This document shows, piece after piece, positions 56,981-64,000 of a stretch of DNA of 64,000 nt; within the stretch, counting starts at the first letter, position 1, and every line of letters begins with the position of its first letter. The stretch is from the NCBI RefSeq assembly GCF_015864665.1, contig NZ_JADYWU010000002.1, positions 1 through 64,000 of the forward strand, written 5' to 3'. This stretch comes from Salinibacterium sp. SWN167. GTDB lineage: Bacteria > Actinomycetota > Actinomycetes > Actinomycetales > Microbacteriaceae. The notes below the pieces were generated by a model that saw only the letters and a list, made by a program, of their open reading frames with translations, did no database searches and was not told the DNA's origin. Both the position numbers and the translations under genes were made by a program.

Positions 56981-57006
56981 TGTCTCGGTAAGAGCGTCTG
57001 TGGACC

Positions 57007-57330
57007 CTAGTGCGAAGACTCGACCAACTTCAGCCCGACAACGCACCCCACAAGCCCCATGAGTAGCAGGATCTTGATCCAGGAGACGGGCTCGCCGCCG
57101 AAGATCATGGCGTAGGCCACGGTCAGCGCTGCGCCGATGCCGACCCAGATGGCGTAGGCGGTGCCGATGGGGATCTCGCGCATGGCGTAGCCGAGGCCAC
57201 CCATGCTGGCGAGAATCGCGACGCCGAACACAACGGTCGGCCAGAGCTTCGTGAAGCCCTCCGACTTGCCGAGGGCAGTGGCCCAGACAGCTTCGAGCAC
57301 ACCAGAAAGAATCAAAACAAGCCAGTACAC
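57007..57330 (-). CDS. gdx: SMR-family guanidinium exporter (Gdx/SugE-type)
   Basis: A 107-residue four-span membrane protein. The motifs SGVLEAVWATALGKSEGFTK (with the essential Glu) and GTAYAIWVGIGAAL are those of the Gdx/SugE branch, which exports guanidinium, rather than EmrE-type multidrug pumps. GTG 57330 has AAGAAG upstream. A predicted guanidine-III riboswitch (57343-57383) sits directly upstream, strongly supporting guanidinium as the cargo. Single-gene, likely a dual-topology homodimer. Confidence 0.9.
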   Translation of the reverse strand: MYWLVLILSGVLEAVWATALGKSEGFTKLWPTVVFGVAILASMGGLGYAMREIPIGTAYAIWVGIGAALTVAYAMIFGGEPVSWIKILLLMGLVGCVVGLKLVESSH

Positions 57331-57342
57331 AACAGTCTTCTT

Positions 57343-57383
57343 GGCCAGTCTTGTCGCGTACCCGGTACTGATCCGTCGTCGGG
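57343..57383 (-). promoter_or_regulatory. Probable guanidine-III (ykkC-III) riboswitch
   Basis: On the minus strand a 41-nt segment ends 12 nt before the exporter GTG. It has the expected short pseudoknot: CCCG (57380-57383) pairs with CGGG (57361-57364), and CAGT (57367-57370) with ACTG (57346-57349). The conserved pieces ACGA, GTACC and ACAAGAC of the known guanidine-III aptamer (from memory) occur in order, with the same total length. The 3' strand ends just before the AAGAAG ribosome site, so ligand binding would expose or hide it. Found by eye; not computed. Confidence 0.78.
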
Positions 57384-57517
57384 AGCCGACTATTGCGGCT
57401 ACTCCGCCACACTATCAAATCCCCCACGTCAGGCCGGAACCGCAACGGGGCATCGGCCGTCTCGCGCGGCCCGTTAGTGGGGTAGCGCCGCCGTGATTAC
57501 TCAGCAATGCTCAGTTA

Positions 57518-58207
57518 GTGAGAATCAATTCGTTTGTTGATGCGAGGCCAGTCCAGATCGGCTACGTGATCGGTTCGGGGGGCTTCGCCGCGTTCGCCGT
57601 CTACTTTGTCGATTTCCGCACCAGCTTCTGGATGCTCGGAGCCCTGGTTCTTCTCTATCTGGGGCCTGTGGGGCTCGCGACGGTGCTCACTCTAGGGGTC
57701 GCGCTGTACGCCACCGCTCTTTTTCTCGGGGACGCTGGACCACTCGTTGTGGTTGTCGTCGCGGTCGCGGTTGCGGCCGTGAATGTGTTGATCGTGCGGC
57801 GCTTTCGGTCGGAGGCAGCACGTTACTCCACCGTTGTCGCCCTGCTCGACACCAAGGAAGTGAGGGAGCGAGCGCTGGGTTTCATAGTGTTTGCGTATGC
57901 GGGTTGCGCCTTCATCGTCCTCTGCTACGTTGCGGGGCTCACCGCACTGGACGGCCTTGCTTCCGGCTCGCACAACTGGTGGATCACCGGAATCGACCGC
58001 CAGACGCTGAGCTCCGACTACCTTTCGTTCTCCTCGATCGTGATCTGGCTAAGCGCGCTTGGCGTGGCACTTGCTGGCCTCGCAGCGTGGGTGTTTCTAG
58101 GGGTGCAGCGCAAACCGCTGCTGCGATGGGCGATCGCCGATCTCGCTGTCATGCTCGCCTCCATCGCGAGCGTCTCTCTAGCTAGTGCGCTGTGGAGCAT
58201 TAACTAG
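57518..58207 (+). CDS. Integral membrane protein of unknown function
   Basis: A 229-residue membrane protein with about seven hydrophobic segments (for example FWMLGALVLLYLGPVGLATVLTLG, LVVVVVAVAVAAVNVLIV, ALGFIVFAYAGCAFIVLCYVAGL). No family is recognised. Start GTG 57518 has no clear ribosome site. Located divergent from the guanidinium exporter across about 187 bp, which contains the riboswitch leader of that gene. Confidence 0.7.
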   Translation: MRINSFVDARPVQIGYVIGSGGFAAFAVYFVDFRTSFWMLGALVLLYLGPVGLATVLTLGVALYATALFLGDAGPLVVVVVAVAVAAVNVLIVRRFRSEAARYSTVVALLDTKEVRERALGFIVFAYAGCAFIVLCYVAGLTALDGLASGSHNWWITGIDRQTLSSDYLSFSSIVIWLSALGVALAGLAAWVFLGVQRKPLLRWAIADLAVMLASIASVSLASALWSIN

Positions 58208-58286
58208 CTTCGCCGCTCAGCGTCTTCTTTGGTGCCCCGGCTAGGTTTCCGCGCCCGGATCCGTCTGGGAGAACCGACGACGAGGC

Positions 58287-58913
58287 CTACTCGAACGCCT
58301 GAACAGACCTAGGCACGCGGATGCCGGAGCGCAGGTCGGGCGTGGCAACAACCTCAACGGCTCGAGCTCCCCACCGCACCTGCCCGCCCCACGCGTCGCC
58401 CGCGATATCGGCGTCGGTGTCATCGGGCCAGTCGTCGGAGGTGCGCAACGACCATTCCGCGATCGGCAACGCAAGCACGAGGGTTGCGGCAAGTTCTTTC
58501 TTGCTATTCGGGCGCACTTCGGTCAAGCGACCGGGGATCAGCTTCTCGGTGATGGCATTGACCGCGGCAGCTTTCTCCTCGCCCTCCAGCACGCGGAACG
58601 AACCGAACAGTACGGCGCTGCTGTAGATCAACGAGGACTCAAAGGCGGAGCGCGCGACGACAATGCCGCCGACTGCCGTGACCGAGATCGCGACGGGCGC
58701 ACCAGAAACGAGTCGCATCCAGCGTGAACCGCTCGAGCCGTGCACGATCAGCTCATCGCCGAGGCGTGCGACCCCGGTCGGCAGAACACCGGGCGTTCCG
58801 TCTTCTTGGACATAAGCGACGTTGCCGACAATCTCCGAGTCGAGAAGAGCGTCAAGGGCCGCCCGATCCCGTGACATCTTCTCGGGCATCCGGGTGGCAT
58901 CAGTCGTTGTCAT
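58287..58913 (-). CDS. Pyridoxamine 5'-phosphate oxidase-like flavoprotein
   Basis: A 208-residue PPOX-fold protein, related to F420 or FMN-binding nitroreductase-like proteins. The split-barrel core includes NVAYVQEDGTPGVLPTGVARLGDELIVHGSSGSRWMRL. Substrate and cofactor (FMN or F420) cannot be told apart by eye. Stands alone. Confidence 0.85.
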   Translation of the reverse strand: MTTTDATRMPEKMSRDRAALDALLDSEIVGNVAYVQEDGTPGVLPTGVARLGDELIVHGSSGSRWMRLVSGAPVAISVTAVGGIVVARSAFESSLIYSSAVLFGSFRVLEGEEKAAAVNAITEKLIPGRLTEVRPNSKKELAATLVLALPIAEWSLRTSDDWPDDTDADIAGDAWGGQVRWGARAVEVVATPDLRSGIRVPRSVQAFE

Positions 58914-58999
58914 CCGGTCAGTGTGACACGCGCCAGCGCTGAACCTCTACGCCGAGCGAGAGTGGTTCTGCGCGCACGCGAGGGCCGTGTGAGCTGCCG

Positions 59000-59800
59000 T
59001 TAGATGAAGTCGGGGCTGGGGGTTGAGGCGAAGCGCACCGAAACATCAGGATGACGGTCGTAGCGGTAGCCGATGCCGCGAACTGTACGAACTACATCTT
59101 CGTACGCGCCGAGCTTGGAGCGCAGGCGTCGGATGTGCACGTCGATGGTGCGCTCGTTGGGGGCTTCGTCGTCTTCGGCGGACCAGAGAGTCGCGATGAG
59201 CTGCGCGCGGTCAATGGTCTGCGATTCGCGCAGAATCAAGAACTGCAGCAACTCGAACTCTTTGTACGTGAGGGCAGCGGGCTCGTCATCAATGAGCACG
59301 CGCTTGCGGGAGAGGTCAACGACCACGCCGCTCGCGGGCTTCTCTTCGGGCTCCTCGGCCTGGCGGTGCTTGGCGAGAGCCGAAGGGTCCTGCAGGGCGA
59401 GGCGCACGACGTCAACGTCTCGTCCACCAGCGCCGACGGGGGCGAGCGCCACGGCGGCGTGAGTTTCGGAGTTCGGCACGAGCTGCTGCGTGAGCTGCTT
59501 GAGCTGTTCCACAATCGCGCTCAGATCGGTGCCAGCGGCGGCGGCCTTCAGCTCGTCGATGCCGACGTAAAGCACGAAGCCGCGGGCTTCGGTTCCCTGA
59601 GGAACAGCGCGCAAGTGCGGCGCGTCAGCAGCGGGGGCTGCGGGAGCAGCGACCGGAGTGGCCGGGCGTGTGTCTCGCGCCGGCTGCACGGCGAGCGAAA
59701 GCTCGCGAGCAGTGTGGGGTGCGGCGTGCGGTGCCCGGCGTGCGGGAGCCGCTGCGGCGAAAGAGGTGCGAGTGGTGCGTTCGATTGTTGCAAGTGACAT
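59000..59800 (-). CDS. Winged-helix transcriptional regulator without receiver
   Basis: A 266-residue protein. The first 70 residues are Ala/Pro/Arg-rich and disordered; about 72-160 form an unassigned domain (FVLYVGIDELKAAAAGTDLS; VVRLALQDPSALAKHR). The C-terminal part (about 160-255) is an OmpR-type winged helix with LTYKEFELLQFLILRES, RTIDVHIRRLRSKLG and RTVRGIGYRYD. No receiver domain or phospho-acceptor is present. ATG 59800 is the first codon of the conserved part; an upstream start at 59872 is less likely. It is transcribed with a leader containing a Cys-rich small ORF, suggesting control by cysteine or redox. Confidence 0.85.
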   Translation of the reverse strand: MSLATIERTTRTSFAAAAPARRAPHAAPHTARELSLAVQPARDTRPATPVAAPAAPAADAPHLRAVPQGTEARGFVLYVGIDELKAAAAGTDLSAIVEQLKQLTQQLVPNSETHAAVALAPVGAGGRDVDVVRLALQDPSALAKHRQAEEPEEKPASGVVVDLSRKRVLIDDEPAALTYKEFELLQFLILRESQTIDRAQLIATLWSAEDDEAPNERTIDVHIRRLRSKLGAYEDVVRTVRGIGYRYDRHPDVSVRFASTPSPDFI

Positions 59801-59916
59801 GGGTCCAGAAATCCTTGGAGAAGGGGTGAAGGGCCTCTGATGATGAGGGTGTGATCCTTCGGAATAAAACAAGTGTGACGAGCTAGATAGACGCCGTTAT
59901 GAGGACGAAGATCTGG

Positions 59917-59942
59917 GGACATTCATTCTGGTGAGAATGTCC
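59917..59942 (-). promoter_or_regulatory. Leader hairpin after the poly-Cys sORF
   Basis: GGACATTC (59917-59924) and GAATGTCC (59935-59942) form an 8-bp perfect stem in the 5' leader of the winged-helix gene, 18 nt after the sORF stop. Its position fits an attenuator or a ribosome-dependent RNA switch; mechanism is inferred. Confidence 0.5.
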
Positions 59943-59959
59943 GGCGCAAGGTTGGCCGA

Positions 59960-60073
59960 CTAGGCACACATTCGACAACACGAAACGTCGCTAGCCACCG
60001 CAGTGCTCGTAAGCATCGCGTTAGCGGTCCTGGAAGCCACGAGGGCGGTCAGGTCGCGAGTTTGTACAGTCAT
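59960..60073 (-). CDS. Leaderless poly-cysteine leader peptide
   Basis: A 37-codon ORF (MTVQTRDLTALVASRTANAM then LTSTAVASDVSCCRMCA and stop). The last seven codons before the stop include three cysteines (CCRMC). A sigma70-type promoter (TTGACA 60110-60105 and CATCAT 60086-60081, 18-bp spacer) would start transcription at or next to its ATG, giving a leaderless mRNA. This fits the pattern of polycysteine sORF attenuators known from mycobacteria, where translation speed over the Cys codons regulates the genes behind. The downstream gene here is the winged-helix regulator at 59800. Product is likely not functional as a peptide. Read from sequence; not tested. Confidence 0.7.
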   Translation of the reverse strand: MTVQTRDLTALVASRTANAMLTSTAVASDVSCCRMCA

Positions 60074-60080
60074 GGTTGCA

Positions 60081-60110
60081 ATGATGTTTCATGCAGCGCG
60101 CCCCTGTCAA
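60081..60110 (-). promoter_or_regulatory. Promoter of the leader-peptide/winged-helix transcript
   Basis: On the minus strand TTGACA (60110-60105) is a perfect -35 box and CATCAT (60086-60081) a four-of-six -10 box with 18-bp spacing. The predicted start of transcription (60075-60073) coincides with the leader ATG at 60073. Confidence 0.6.
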
Positions 60111-60132
60111 GTTGCGCGCGAAAATTGTGCTG

Positions 60133-60765
60133 CTAGACGAGACCGTACAGGCGGTCGCCAGCATCGCCGAGGCCGGGCACGATGTAGCCGTTCTCGTTGA
60201 GGCGTTCGTCGAGTGCGCCGAGCACGATCGTGACGTCTTTGTCGCCCATGGCCTTCTCGAGGGCAGCAAGGCCTTCAGGGGCGCCGAGGATGCAGACCGC
60301 GGTGACGTCAGTGGCACCACGGTCGAGCAGGTACTGAATCGCTGCGATGAGCGAGCCTCCGGTTGCCAGCATGGGGTCGAGCACGAAGCACTGGCGGTTC
60401 GACAGATCGTCGGGCAGGCGCTCGGCGTAGGTGTCTGGCTGCAGCGTCTCTTCGTTGCGCACCATGCCCAAGAAGCCGACTTCGGCGGTGGGTACGAGCT
60501 TGACCATTCCCTCGAGCATTCCGAGCCCGGCCCGAAGAATCGGCACCACGAGAGGCTTGGGTGAGCTGATTGCCACACCCTTCGTCGCGGTGACGGGGGT
60601 CTCAATGTCGACCTCTTCAACGCGCACCGAACGGGTCGCTTCGTACGCCAAAAGCGTGACTAGCTCCTCCGTCAGCGCCCGAAAAGTGGGGGCGGCGGTG
60701 TTCTTGTCGCGCAGCACGGTGAGCTTGTGCGTGATGAGCGGGTGGTCGGCAACGTGAACTCGCAT
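60133..60765 (-). CDS. upp: Uracil phosphoribosyltransferase
   Basis: A 210-residue uracil salvage enzyme converting uracil and PRPP to UMP. The PRPP loop reads [18 protein letters not shown], and the N-terminus [21 protein letters not shown] and central [17 protein letters not shown] are family hallmarks. Length matches. Divergent from tadA across 43 bp. Confidence 0.96.
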
Positions 60766-60808
60766 AGGCTAAATCTACTTGAGGTACGGACCACTTGGAG
60801 AACCGATC

Positions 60809-61261
60809 GTGACAAAGTTCGATCAATGGATGACGCGGGCCATCGCCGAGGCGAAGCTCACGGCCGATTCTGCCGACGTTCCAGTCGCCGCTCTCGTCTT
60901 CGATCAGAACGACAATCTCGTCTCCGTTGGGCGCAATGAGCGGGAGCTCACGGGCGACCCCACGGCGCACGCCGAGGTAGTGGCAATCCGGGCCGCGGCC
61001 GCGGCCACCGGTTCGTGGCGCCTCGACGAGATGACTCTCGTGGTCACCCTTGAGCCGTGCACGATGTGTGCTGGCGCGATTCTGCAGGCCCGCATCCCGC
61101 GCGTGGTGTTTGGGGCGTGGGACGAAAAAGCCGGCGCATCAGGCAGCGTGAATGATCTACTGCGTGACCGCCGGCTTCCGCACAAGGTCGAGGTGGTGGC
61201 GGGCATCCAAGAGGCTGAATGCGCTGCGCTGCTGACGGACTTCTTCGAAGCCCGTCGCTAG
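60809..61261 (+). CDS. tadA: tRNA adenosine(34) deaminase
   Basis: A 150-residue zinc deaminase converting A34 to inosine in tRNA-Arg. Zinc and proton-shuttle residues are His54 and Glu56 in PTAHAEVVAIR and Cys84/Cys87 in EPCTMCAGA. GTG 60809 has GGAG eight bases upstream and is preferred to the TTG at 60779. C-terminal VNDLLRDRRLPHKVEV is normal for the family. Confidence 0.93.
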   Translation: MTKFDQWMTRAIAEAKLTADSADVPVAALVFDQNDNLVSVGRNERELTGDPTAHAEVVAIRAAAAATGSWRLDEMTLVVTLEPCTMCAGAILQARIPRVVFGAWDEKAGASGSVNDLLRDRRLPHKVEVVAGIQEAECAALLTDFFEARR

Positions 61262-61276
61262 CCCGCTAGGCCCGGC

Positions 61277-61660
61277 TTAGTGCCAGAGCACCGCAACGAA
61301 CACGTTGATGAGCGCGCCCATGCCTGCAAGGTGCAGGAACGGCAGGGTGGCTTTCTTTTCGCTGGTGCCCGCGCTGAGGGCCTTGGCCTGGCGTGAGCGC
61401 GCGATCATGACGGCGACGAGCACGACGATCGCGAAGATCAGCTTCACGGCGATCTTGGCGTTGTTGACGTCTTCGTCGTTCATCTGCACGAGGCCAACAA
61501 GGATGAGTCCGGTGACGAGCTGCGTGATGGCACCGATCAGCATCGTGCCCAGTTCAAAGCCTTCTTTGCGGCGCAGCTGAAGAGCGAATGATCCGATGAT
61601 GAGCGCAAGCCCCAGAATGTGCAGCGCGAGCACGGTGTGAATGATTGGTTCGAAGTTCAT
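61277..61660 (-). CDS. Small membrane protein of unknown function
   Basis: A 127-residue protein with four likely membrane helices (ALHILGLALIIGSFALQL; GTMLIGAITQLVTGLILVGLV; AVKLIFAIVVLVAVMIA; MGALINVFVAVLW). No family is recognised. It lies 17 bp downstream of the CDF gene on the same strand and could be cotranscribed. Confidence 0.75.
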   Translation of the reverse strand: MNFEPIIHTVLALHILGLALIIGSFALQLRRKEGFELGTMLIGAITQLVTGLILVGLVQMNDEDVNNAKIAVKLIFAIVVLVAVMIARSRQAKALSAGTSEKKATLPFLHLAGMGALINVFVAVLWH

Positions 61661-61677
61661 GGTTTCGGGATCCTTCT

Positions 61678-62640
61678 TTAGTCGTTGCCCACGATGACAA
61701 TGGCATCGGTGGGTGGTGCCGCTTCGGCTGGGCGGCGGTAAACGTCGGGTTCGATGTAGATCACGCGCGCCATCGGTTCAGCTGTACGAATGTCTTGTTC
61801 GACACTATCGATACTCGCCGCCACATCGCTCAAGCGAGTTTGCGCTCCGAAGTCGACCTTGGCAGCGACCAGGAGCTCTTCCGGGCCGAGGTAGAGCGTC
61901 TTCATGTGGATGAGCGAGCGAACGTCAGGGTGGGCGTTGATGGTGTCGCGAATGAGGTTGCGCTGCTTGGTGGTTGCACCCTCGCCGACGAGCAGGCTCT
62001 TGGTCTCGATGCCCAGAATGATCGCGACGATGATCAGCAGAATACCGATGGCAATCGTGCCGATGGCATCCCAGGTCGAGTCGCCCGTAATGACGGTGAG
62101 ACCGACGCCGAACAGAGCGAGCACGAGACCGAGTTCAGCGGCAACGTCTTCGAGTAGCACTACGGGAAGCTCGGGAGCTTTCGCGTGACGAATAAACGCG
62201 ATCCAGCCCTGCTTGCCGCGCACGAGATTCGACTCTTTCACGGCGGTGCGCAGCGAGAAGCCTTCGAGCACGATCGCGATGAGCAGAACGGTAATGGGCA
62301 GCCACGCTTGCTCAAGCTTGTGCGGATCTTGCAGCTTATGAATGCCCTCGTAGAGCGAGAACACGCCACCGACCGAGAACAGGATGATCGAAACGACGAA
62401 GGCGTACACGTAGCGCTCGCGGCCATAACCGAACGGATGCTCGGCATCCGCGTTCTTCTTGGCTTGCTTGCCACCGAGCAACAGCAGCGCCTGGTTGCTC
62501 GTGTCTGCCACGGAGTGCACGCTCTCCGCGAGCATCGAACTGGACCCCGAAATCAGAAACGCAATGAATTTGGTGACAGCGATTCCGCCGTTCGCCACCA
62601 TTGCAGCGATGATTGCCTTAGTTCCGCCTGACGCGCTCAT
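61678..62640 (-). CDS. Cation diffusion facilitator (CDF) family transporter
   Basis: A 320-residue CDF protein with about six membrane spans and a C-terminal cytoplasmic domain. The TM2 metal site is H42-x3-D46 (ESVHSVADTSNQ). In TM5 the usual HxxxD is replaced by LLEDVAAELGL, with Glu-Asp and a later Glu, as in the SLC30A9-like branch, so metal specificity may differ from zinc. Exports or handles divalent metal with proton exchange. Divergent from proC over 23 bp. Confidence 0.9.
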   Translation of the reverse strand: MSASGGTKAIIAAMVANGGIAVTKFIAFLISGSSSMLAESVHSVADTSNQALLLLGGKQAKKNADAEHPFGYGRERYVYAFVVSIILFSVGGVFSLYEGIHKLQDPHKLEQAWLPITVLLIAIVLEGFSLRTAVKESNLVRGKQGWIAFIRHAKAPELPVVLLEDVAAELGLVLALFGVGLTVITGDSTWDAIGTIAIGILLIIVAIILGIETKSLLVGEGATTKQRNLIRDTINAHPDVRSLIHMKTLYLGPEELLVAAKVDFGAQTRLSDVAASIDSVEQDIRTAEPMARVIYIEPDVYRRPAEAAPPTDAIVIVGND

Positions 62641-62663
62641 ACGATCGATTCTAGGATGTTCAC

Positions 62664-63491
62664 GTGACTACTTCTCTTCCTAGCATTGCAATTGTCGGCG
62701 CCGGATCAATGGGAGGTGCCATCCTGTCGGGTTTGCTTGACCCCTCGGTGACTGTAAGCGGGGGAATCCGCGTCACAAATCGCACCGAAGCTAAGGCTGC
62801 TGTGGTGCGTTCTGAGGGCGTGGAGTCCTTTGCGCTGGAGAATACTCCTGATGGCAATGCGCGCGCTGTGAAGGGGGCGAAGGTCGTGATGCTGGGGGTA
62901 AAGCCCGCCATGATCCCCGACACCCTTACCGCCCTTGCCCCATTCTTAGAACCCGATGCGATCATCATCAGCGTTGCTGCGGGTGTAACAACCGCACGGA
63001 TGGAAGGCATCGTCGACAACGTTGTGTTGCGTGCCATGCCCAACACTCCCGCTATCGTCGGCAAGGCCGTGACGGGACTCAGCGCTGGGTCGCGCGCCAC
63101 CGCGGATGACCTCGCCCTCGGCCGCGCCGTGTTTGAGACGGTCGGCACCGTCGTCGAAACGCCGGAATCGCAGATTGATGCGCTCAGCACCATCTCGGGT
63201 TCCGGCCCGGCCTACGTGTTCTTGATTCTCGAAGAGTTTGCTCGCACCGCCGTCGACATGGGCTTCACGCCCGAGCAGGCACTGACCCTGGTTGCCGGAA
63301 CGTTTGAAGGATCGCTCGCACTGCTGGCGTCATCCGATAGTTCACCGGCGCAACTGCGTAAGCAGGTTACGAGCCCTAAGGGCACGACCGAGCGTGCGGT
63401 TGAACAGCTGCAGGCTGCCGATCTGAAGGCAATTTTTGACAAGGCGACCGCTGCGGCGCTCGCTCGGGCCACGGAGCTCGCTGCCGGCTAA
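62664..63491 (+). CDS. proC: Pyrroline-5-carboxylate reductase
   Basis: A 275-residue enzyme for the last step of proline synthesis. Cofactor motif IVGAGSMGGAILSGLL (about 9-24), RAMPNTPAIVGKAVTGLSAG in the middle, and the signature SGSGPAYVFLILEEFARTAVD. GTG 62664 is the start. Length matches the family. Confidence 0.95.
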   Translation: MTTSLPSIAIVGAGSMGGAILSGLLDPSVTVSGGIRVTNRTEAKAAVVRSEGVESFALENTPDGNARAVKGAKVVMLGVKPAMIPDTLTALAPFLEPDAIIISVAAGVTTARMEGIVDNVVLRAMPNTPAIVGKAVTGLSAGSRATADDLALGRAVFETVGTVVETPESQIDALSTISGSGPAYVFLILEEFARTAVDMGFTPEQALTLVAGTFEGSLALLASSDSSPAQLRKQVTSPKGTTERAVEQLQAADLKAIFDKATAAALARATELAAG

Positions 63492-63555
63492 TCGCTCTTA
63501 CCCGTTCGTGCGGCCCCATTCGTGCCGCCTCGCGCATGCGGCTGCGCGACCGCTT

Positions 63556-64000
63556 TTAGAAGCGGCCGTGCAGCGCGCGCGAACGACGAGACATCGAGTC
63601 GATGATCACGGCGAGCAGTAGCACCGCTCCCGTGACCATGTAGCGCACCGAGGAGTCGAGGCTCAGCAGCGTGAGGCCGCTCGAGATCGACTGAATGACG
63701 ACAATGCCCAGCAGGGCAGACCAGGCGCTTCCGCGACCGCCGAAGAGGCTTGCACCGCCGATCACGGCTGCTGCGATGGCAGTGAGGTTGGTGTCGCCCC
63801 CGCCGCTGCTCTGGTTGGCGGCGGCCAGTCGTGATGCCGCCAGAATGCCACCGAGCGCTGCAAGTGTCGCACTCACTACGAACACCGAAATGTAGACCCG
63901 ATCAACCCGGATGCCTGCCCGCCGGGCTGCTTCGACGTTGCCGCCGACCGCATAGATGGAGCGCCCCCAGCGCGTGCGCTTGAGCGCAAAGTTGACGGCC
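63556..64000 (-). CDS. ABC sugar permease, RbsC/XylH-type (5' part outside window)
   Basis: The visible 147 codons are the C-terminal part of a ribose/xylose-type permease; the coding frame stays open to base 64000, beyond which it continues. The segment has WGRSIYAVGGNVEAARRAGIRV, the typical RbsC loop, and IAAAVIGGASLFGGRGSAWSALLG, then a terminal VLLLAVIIDSMSRR. The transporter's other genes lie upstream of this strand, outside the window. Convergent with proC. Confidence 0.9.
   Translation of the reverse strand, partial: AVNFALKRTRWGRSIYAVGGNVEAARRAGIRVDRVYISVFVVSATLAALGGILAASRLAAANQSSGGGDTNLTAIAAAVIGGASLFGGRGSAWSALLGIVVIQSISSGLTLLSLDSSVRYMVTGAVLLLAVIIDSMSRRSRALHGRF

Follow-up and report, generated by a model that had tools for sequence, protein, structure and literature searches.

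In this study, we analysed a leader region on the minus strand of a 64,000-nucleotide stretch of Salinibacterium sp. SWN167 DNA, the whole of which is referred to here as the window. The region leads into a gene (59003..59800, ATG at 59800) for a winged-helix regulator, which has an OmpR/PhoB-type DNA-binding domain according to Pfam and is preceded by the Shine-Dalgarno (SD) sequence AAGGA (59812..59816). An earlier note on this DNA had described a TTGACA/CATCAT promoter next to the ATG of a 37-codon ORF ending in SCCRMCA, followed by an 8-bp hairpin 18 nt past the stop and then by the winged-helix gene, and our analysis confirmed this arrangement and its coordinates. The -35 hexamer TTGACA (60105..60110), which is also found in 36 of the 55 leaders compared below, and the -10 hexamer CATCAT (60081..60086) are separated by an 18 nt spacer and form the sole sigma70-type match in 59700-60250 (shuffle mean 0.1). 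The -10 hexamer lies 7 nt before the ATG of the small ORF (sORF) at 60073, which is a leaderless geometry. The sORF (59960..60073) encodes the peptide MTVQTRDLTALVASRTANAMLTSTAVASDVSCCRMCA and ends in the conserved tail TGT TGT CGA ATG TGT GCC (59963..59980; C C R M C A), the codons of which were counted in the 55 leaders. The 159 nt between the sORF stop and the regulator ATG hold the post-stop hairpin GGACATTC...GAATGTCC (59917..59942; 8 bp, first base at stop +18) and, just upstream of the regulator SD, the pre-SD stem GAAGG-CCUC...GAGG-C-CCUUC (59828..59860).

No terminator-like site, by which a classical transcription attenuator would be recognized, was found in 59700-60250, and an Rfam search at gathering score gave no match for the leader; a sub-threshold match to Ms_AS-5 on the other strand (21.6 bits against the required 46) was dropped. 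Short ORFs are frequent in this DNA, with 77 of at least 30 aa overlapping 57000-64000, and the sORF might for this reason be thought a functionless chance frame. This idea is contradicted by all of the conservation evidence presented below and, being refuted by comparison, has practically no chance of being correct.

The regulator had been described as receiver-less, and indeed Pfam finds Trans_reg_C alone (5.9e-21, residues 173-246) with no match to a receiver domain. The 25 NCBIfam matches listed, of 38, are all below cut-offs and start no earlier than residue 132. Among solved structures, those nearest to it are of the GlnR and PhoB DNA-binding domains, the former being 38% identical to the winged helix of the regulator in the Foldseek alignment; unlike these two proteins, the regulator is without a receiver-domain match. 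The N-terminal domain of the AF2 model is weak (residues 72-145 of low confidence, mean pLDDT 63.9). PF01507 and PF01077 gave no match in the genome itself, where sulfate assimilation genes were thereby rejected as carriers of sister leaders, and PF01507 (PAPS-reductase-type) was found in only one of 27 Salinibacterium genomes. It therefore seems unlikely, on the basis of gene content, that sulfate assimilation genes are targets of the regulator in Salinibacterium.

Conservation of the leader in Microbacteriaceae

The regulator is accompanied by an upstream sORF in all 27 Salinibacterium genomes. In a second collection 41 loci were fetched, of which 37 are orthologous (L034-L070), and the sORF was found in 34 of these; the removal of six same-species repeats (L034-L038 and L041) left 55 leaders for comparison. 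The loci without the sORF are L057, where the contig ends 43 nt upstream, L060, where the gene is truncated and the upstream DNA unrelated, and L069 (Microbacteriaceae bacterium MWH-Ta3), in which no Cys-tail sORF was found upstream of the regulator. In L069 the regulator comes after upp and a -10-like box is seen near its own ATG.

With gaps of 3-11 nt allowed, the best-scoring -10 hexamer lies 7 nt before the start codon in 47 of the 55 leaders and 6 nt before it in eight, a geometry that would suit a transcription start at the sORF start codon in 55/55. The promoter score was at least 9/12 in 41 of 55 leaders, compared with none of 1100 control positions. The leaders have 11 distinct lengths between 25 and 53 codons; the 53 codons of L047 include an in-frame tandem MMPVL expansion, in keeping with a body that changes freely. 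In all 55 leaders, located by an amino-acid pattern, the last seven codons hold two to four Cys, and in 50 there is no Cys elsewhere. No codon position is exempt from drift in the sORF body: among eight Salinibacterium leaders the amino acid is changed at 16 of 36 codons and only synonymous changes are seen at three, and among ten other leaders the corresponding counts are 15 of 25 and three. This drift favours regulation in cis over a working protein. It has to be weighed against the idea of a peptide that acts in trans, such as a small Cys- and Met-rich protein with a metal- or redox-binding role; this idea would be in keeping with the Cys-rich tail and with the GMMMP Met run of many Microbacteriaceae leaders. 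However, the body is without amino-acid constraint while the wobble bases of the tail are constrained, and the Met run is absent from many Salinibacterium leaders and from the 30 Micrococcaceae leaders described below, which makes a peptide acting in trans very improbable.

The sORF stop and the regulator ATG are 146-309 nt apart in 54 leaders (L070 excluded). This is a long distance for coupling, and a mere loader would have no need of Cys-Arg-Met; both points speak against an sORF that responds to no signal and only loads ribosomes constitutively or couples translation. Even though leaderless sORFs ahead of genes are common in mycobacteria according to the accessible parts of PMC4633059, we give this explanation very little credence.

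Across 299 Microbacteriaceae genomes, at least one match to the tail pattern was found in 202, representing 64 of 85 genera, with some of the matches being strays; a reversed-pattern control gave one match that was noticed, in G472. Many of the 97 genomes without the exact pattern are smaller than 2 Mb, and at least three of them (G132, G174 and G213) carry an sORF with a different last codon. A conserved position before the same gene is a trait of polycysteine sORF attenuators, and the regulator is directly downstream at 56 of 60 tail sites in the fetched loci of both families; three exceptions (L133, L134 and L160) resemble stray matches and the fourth (L139) is near a contig end. A profile of the regulator was run against 198 genomes from the order, of which 42 had a match with an E value of at most 1e-30; orthologues were found in 14 Microbacteriaceae, none of those listed being without a match. 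The Cys version of the tail was also sought outside the family and rejected there: 27 of 246 class genomes matched, and the matches were sORF tails only in 12 Microbacteriaceae and not in the other 15.

Outside Microbacterium, the fetched Microbacteriaceae loci have the order tadA-upp-sORF-regulator with few gaps (upp undetected in L041, nothing upstream in L057 and no sORF in L069). In the Microbacterium-group loci (L058, L059, L061-L067) the sORF is kept with the regulator, and upp and tadA are undetected in the fetched flank. Judged by this relocation, the leader belongs to the regulator, which it accompanies despite the different neighbours in Microbacterium. The L046 contig, titled Acidobacteria bacterium, has a typical Microbacteriaceae tadA-upp-sORF-regulator block and is probably a mis-binned metagenome contig.

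The core UGU-UGY-CGA-AUG is nearly fixed including its wobble bases, while the sORF body drifts. CGA and ATG are present in 55/55 leaders; the tail begins with TGT in 51 and with CTG in four, and its second codon is TGT in 41 and TGC in 14, against a rough codon background of 18% TGT and 16% CGA, computed over the regulator plus the longest frame upstream. Consecutive Cys codons near the stop, another trait of polycysteine sORF attenuators, are seen as CC in 51 of 55 leaders, and the remaining four have a single Cys right before CGA. The third Cys is replaced by His or Gln in two of three Frondihabitans leaders and in the Micrococcaceae set, and a single tail Cys is kept in some leaders (L123, L132 and L175). 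The description as a poly-Cys leader is borne out in that the Cys codons are conserved, but from these codon counts the most conserved element is Cys-Arg(CGA)-Met with fixed bases rather than poly-Cys as such.

The leader in Micrococcaceae

By profile search, regulator orthologues are also present in 14 genomes of a second family, the Micrococcaceae, an assignment based on one member, whose DNA matches two Arthrobacter replicons with 84 and 80% identity; both replicons carry the leader, with the tails CCRMQA and CSCRMPA. In many Micrococcaceae a GTG-started sORF (VN...CCCRM[HQ]A) precedes the regulator orthologue. An sORF with terminal Cys and Arg-Met was found at nine of the 14 orthologues (L117, L118 and L122-L128), L123 having the variant tail CGRRMPR; no leader was seen in L116, L120, L121 and L129, and the frame in L119 is ambiguous. 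The leader was likewise not found in L130/L131. The exact tail pattern occurs in 40 of 149 Micrococcaceae genomes and is absent from 109. By eye, the GTG sits like a leaderless start relative to the promoter. CC or CCC followed by RM[HQ]A ends 29 of 30 fetched Micrococcaceae sORFs, found with a pattern that demanded one Cys. The codons of the tail are TGY TGY CGA ATG CAN GCN; since CGA was required by the search pattern, its presence in 30/30 is no evidence, and in loci found without requiring it CGA is present in seven of seven. Among the 30 leaders the Cys at -2 is encoded by TGC in 15/17, and the next two Cys positions by TGT in 27/29 and 27/30.

In L162-L190, the promoters upstream of the GTG share, by eye, TTGTTAC/ATTACTTGC-like repeats, with an imperfect TCTCAnnATGnGGAC repeat further upstream. 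On their sequence these promoter repeats are candidate transcription-factor binding sites.

According to the earlier note, its proposal of a cysteine attenuator should fall if the Cys codons or the ATG were not conserved among relatives, and both were found to be conserved (55 leaders, two families). What the comparison strengthens in this proposal is the link to the winged-helix gene, the Cys codons at the sORF end and the geometry of a leaderless start, all of which recur in the two families.

RNA features between the sORF and the regulator

For the fold, pairing, hairpin, C/G and complement counts L070 was left out because its start is misassigned, leaving 54 leaders. The post-stop hairpin covaries in Salinibacterium, with 102 of 114 cells paired among 19 distinct hairpins compared with a maximum of 93 in 1000 shuffles; arms were anchored and a shift of +/-1 was allowed, in the shuffles likewise. 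In group B (14 distinct hairpins) 72 of 84 cells are paired and no shuffle was equally good, and in group A alone (5 distinct) the signal is weak, 34 of 1000 shuffles being equally good. A first covariation count had been biased, as right arms were chosen for best pairing; anchors are present in 47 of the 54 leaders. The pre-SD stem pattern is found in all 27 Salinibacterium leaders and in two of three Glaciihabitans-group leaders and in none of the other groups, and its inner pair is changed from U-A to C-G in 5/27 Salinibacterium. The folding stability of the whole leader is ordinary (z -0.49). Between sORF and regulator C exceeds G in 54/54 leaders, which is as expected for Rho loading sites but also for the coding region here.

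The fixed wobble bases might suggest that the 12-nt core UGUUGUCGAAUG acts mainly at the RNA level, by pairing with an anti-tail further downstream or as the binding site of a factor, and that the Cys codons are largely a by-product. This would be consistent with the invariant CGA, with TGT in 51/51 leaders that have a first-position Cys, with the wobble bias of the Micrococcaceae tails and with the complement of CGAAUGC, which is found downstream in 28 of 30 Micrococcaceae leaders against 4.2 expected. The stretch searched was the 226 nt after the sORF stop, which extends into the regulator gene, and 21 positions in six groups were tried. In 25 of 29 Micrococcaceae the complement, GCAUUCG, lies 41-49 nt before the regulator ATG (the L185 start was not found and the L188 start is doubtful). 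However, the complement is nearly invariant and hence without covariation, shared ancestry inflates the count, and L172, L173 and L190 have no full complement near the regulator start. Furthermore, most Microbacteriaceae pairing energies are no better than those of shuffles, and the number of Cys is kept while their positions move (CC-C, CCC, LC-C). We therefore regard a primary RNA element as unlikely, with a small but appreciable chance of being correct.

In the Micrococcaceae loci L162-L191, a conserved block GCAUUCG-GCCG..GAUGA..CGGC-CAUUCAC is seen before the SD, 41-49 nt before the regulator ATG. Tail-to-downstream pairing as a switch was rejected: when each leader was compared with 100 dinucleotide shuffles, gapped duplexes reached z < -2 in only one of 54 leaders (L043, -3.76). 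For ungapped helices, the advantage over shuffles is clear in Frondihabitans alone (3 leaders, mean z -2.27) and slight in Microbacterium (9 leaders, -0.76). In minimum-energy folds, the Salinibacterium tail often pairs with regulator codons at about +9 to +26, which is within chance. Complements of GUGUUGY were found in 8/9 Microbacterium leaders against 3.2 expected and in 20/27 Salinibacterium leaders against 10.6, both below the preset threshold; 7-mer complements at -27/-26 exceed the preset threshold also in group B and Microbacterium.

Proposed mechanism and relation to known cysteine leaders

Comparison among the loci shows a conserved reading frame, leaderless geometry, a fixed tail, a covarying hairpin and a link to the regulator. 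From these features, we consider it fairly probable that the leader is a cis-acting, leaderless, cysteine-responsive attenuator of the orphan winged-helix regulator, in which the tiny cysteine-ended sORF probably serves as a built-in cysteine gauge setting the amount of regulator. In this model transcription would start at or next to the ATG, so that the ribosome would load directly on the 5' end and translate the sORF. When Cys-tRNA is plentiful, the ribosome would read UGU-UGY-CGA-AUG and reach the stop. The leader RNA beyond it could then either fold into the post-stop hairpin and pre-SD stem or remain an exposed C-rich stretch for Rho, and the yield of regulator would be low. When Cys-tRNA is short, the ribosome would stall at the Cys codons shortly before the stop codon and occupy the tail, the downstream RNA would be refolded or shielded, and the winged-helix gene would be expressed. 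Cysteine as the signal, the direction of the response and the choice between translational block and Rho are what we infer here, and we lean slightly towards the translational block.

It is also conceivable that the unvarying CGA codon behind the Cys pair acts as a second sensor, so that Cys-tRNA supply and Arg-tRNA modification would be integrated. CGA is decoded by an Arg-tRNA with inosine-34, a product of TadA, and this suggestion follows from TadA making the CGA-reading tRNA together with the location of tadA just beyond upp in the fetched Microbacteriaceae loci outside Microbacterium. We assign it a low probability; if true, a single switch would place a GlnR-like regulator under the joint influence of sulfur amino acids and decoding capacity.

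In 2005 Seliverstov put forward terminator-less leader peptides with Cys runs in Mycobacterium, P. acnes and B. longum, where they precede cys operons or cbs, with Rho as the suggested factor (PMC1262725, accessible sections). These share with the present leader a run of Cys codons near the stop and the lack of a conserved terminator; in contrast, the present leader stands ahead of an orphan regulator. As far as its accessible text goes, a later study reports leaderless Cys-rich sORFs ahead of cysA2, Rv0485/Msmeg_0932 and nirA in mycobacteria, and counts the Rv0485/Msmeg_0932 target among 'putative hypothetical' genes (Shell 2015, PMC4633059). Cysteine-dependent attenuation by leaderless sORFs of M. 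smegmatis is summarized in PMC9031893 and PMC13236596 and used in PMC9094748, in the portions of these papers available. As far as these portions describe them, the mycobacterial polycysteine sORFs have in common with the present leader the leaderless start, the Cys codons at the 3' end and the cis position before a gene. In one case, Rv0485, which we take to be a regulator, the kind of target would be shared as well. The earlier note had regarded a regulator as an unusual target, as such sORFs usually precede sulfur genes, and with Rv0485 as a precedent this contrast is weakened. The present leader differs from the mycobacterial ones in its families, its Cys-Arg(CGA)-Met core with constrained wobble bases, its OmpR/GlnR-type orphan regulator as target and its covarying hairpin. 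By this analogy, the best reading is that it may follow the same working principle, with a core and target of its own. No such leader in Microbacteriaceae or Micrococcaceae is named among the literature matches listed, the scope of which takes in few subscription papers, or in the accessible sections of PMC1262725.

With an attenuator of this kind, control by cysteine leaders would be extended from mycobacteria to two large bacterial families from soil and marine habitats. It would also offer a physiological entry point to a widely conserved regulator, namely the signal that is probably read at the regulator's own leader. As Salinibacterium is mostly without PAPS-reductase-type genes, the leader may also hint at the way in which cysteine is gauged by bacteria that live on reduced sulfur. 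Since the wobble bases are fixed, amino-acid sensing and an RNA element should be cleanly distinguishable.

Elsewhere in the window, a Guanidine-III riboswitch (57404-57340, minus strand; 47.6 bits against 36) is immediately followed by a small ORF (57330-57007), for which inspection by eye suggests a small multidrug-resistance-type transporter. A guanidine riboswitch with a transporter of this type is a known kind of pairing.
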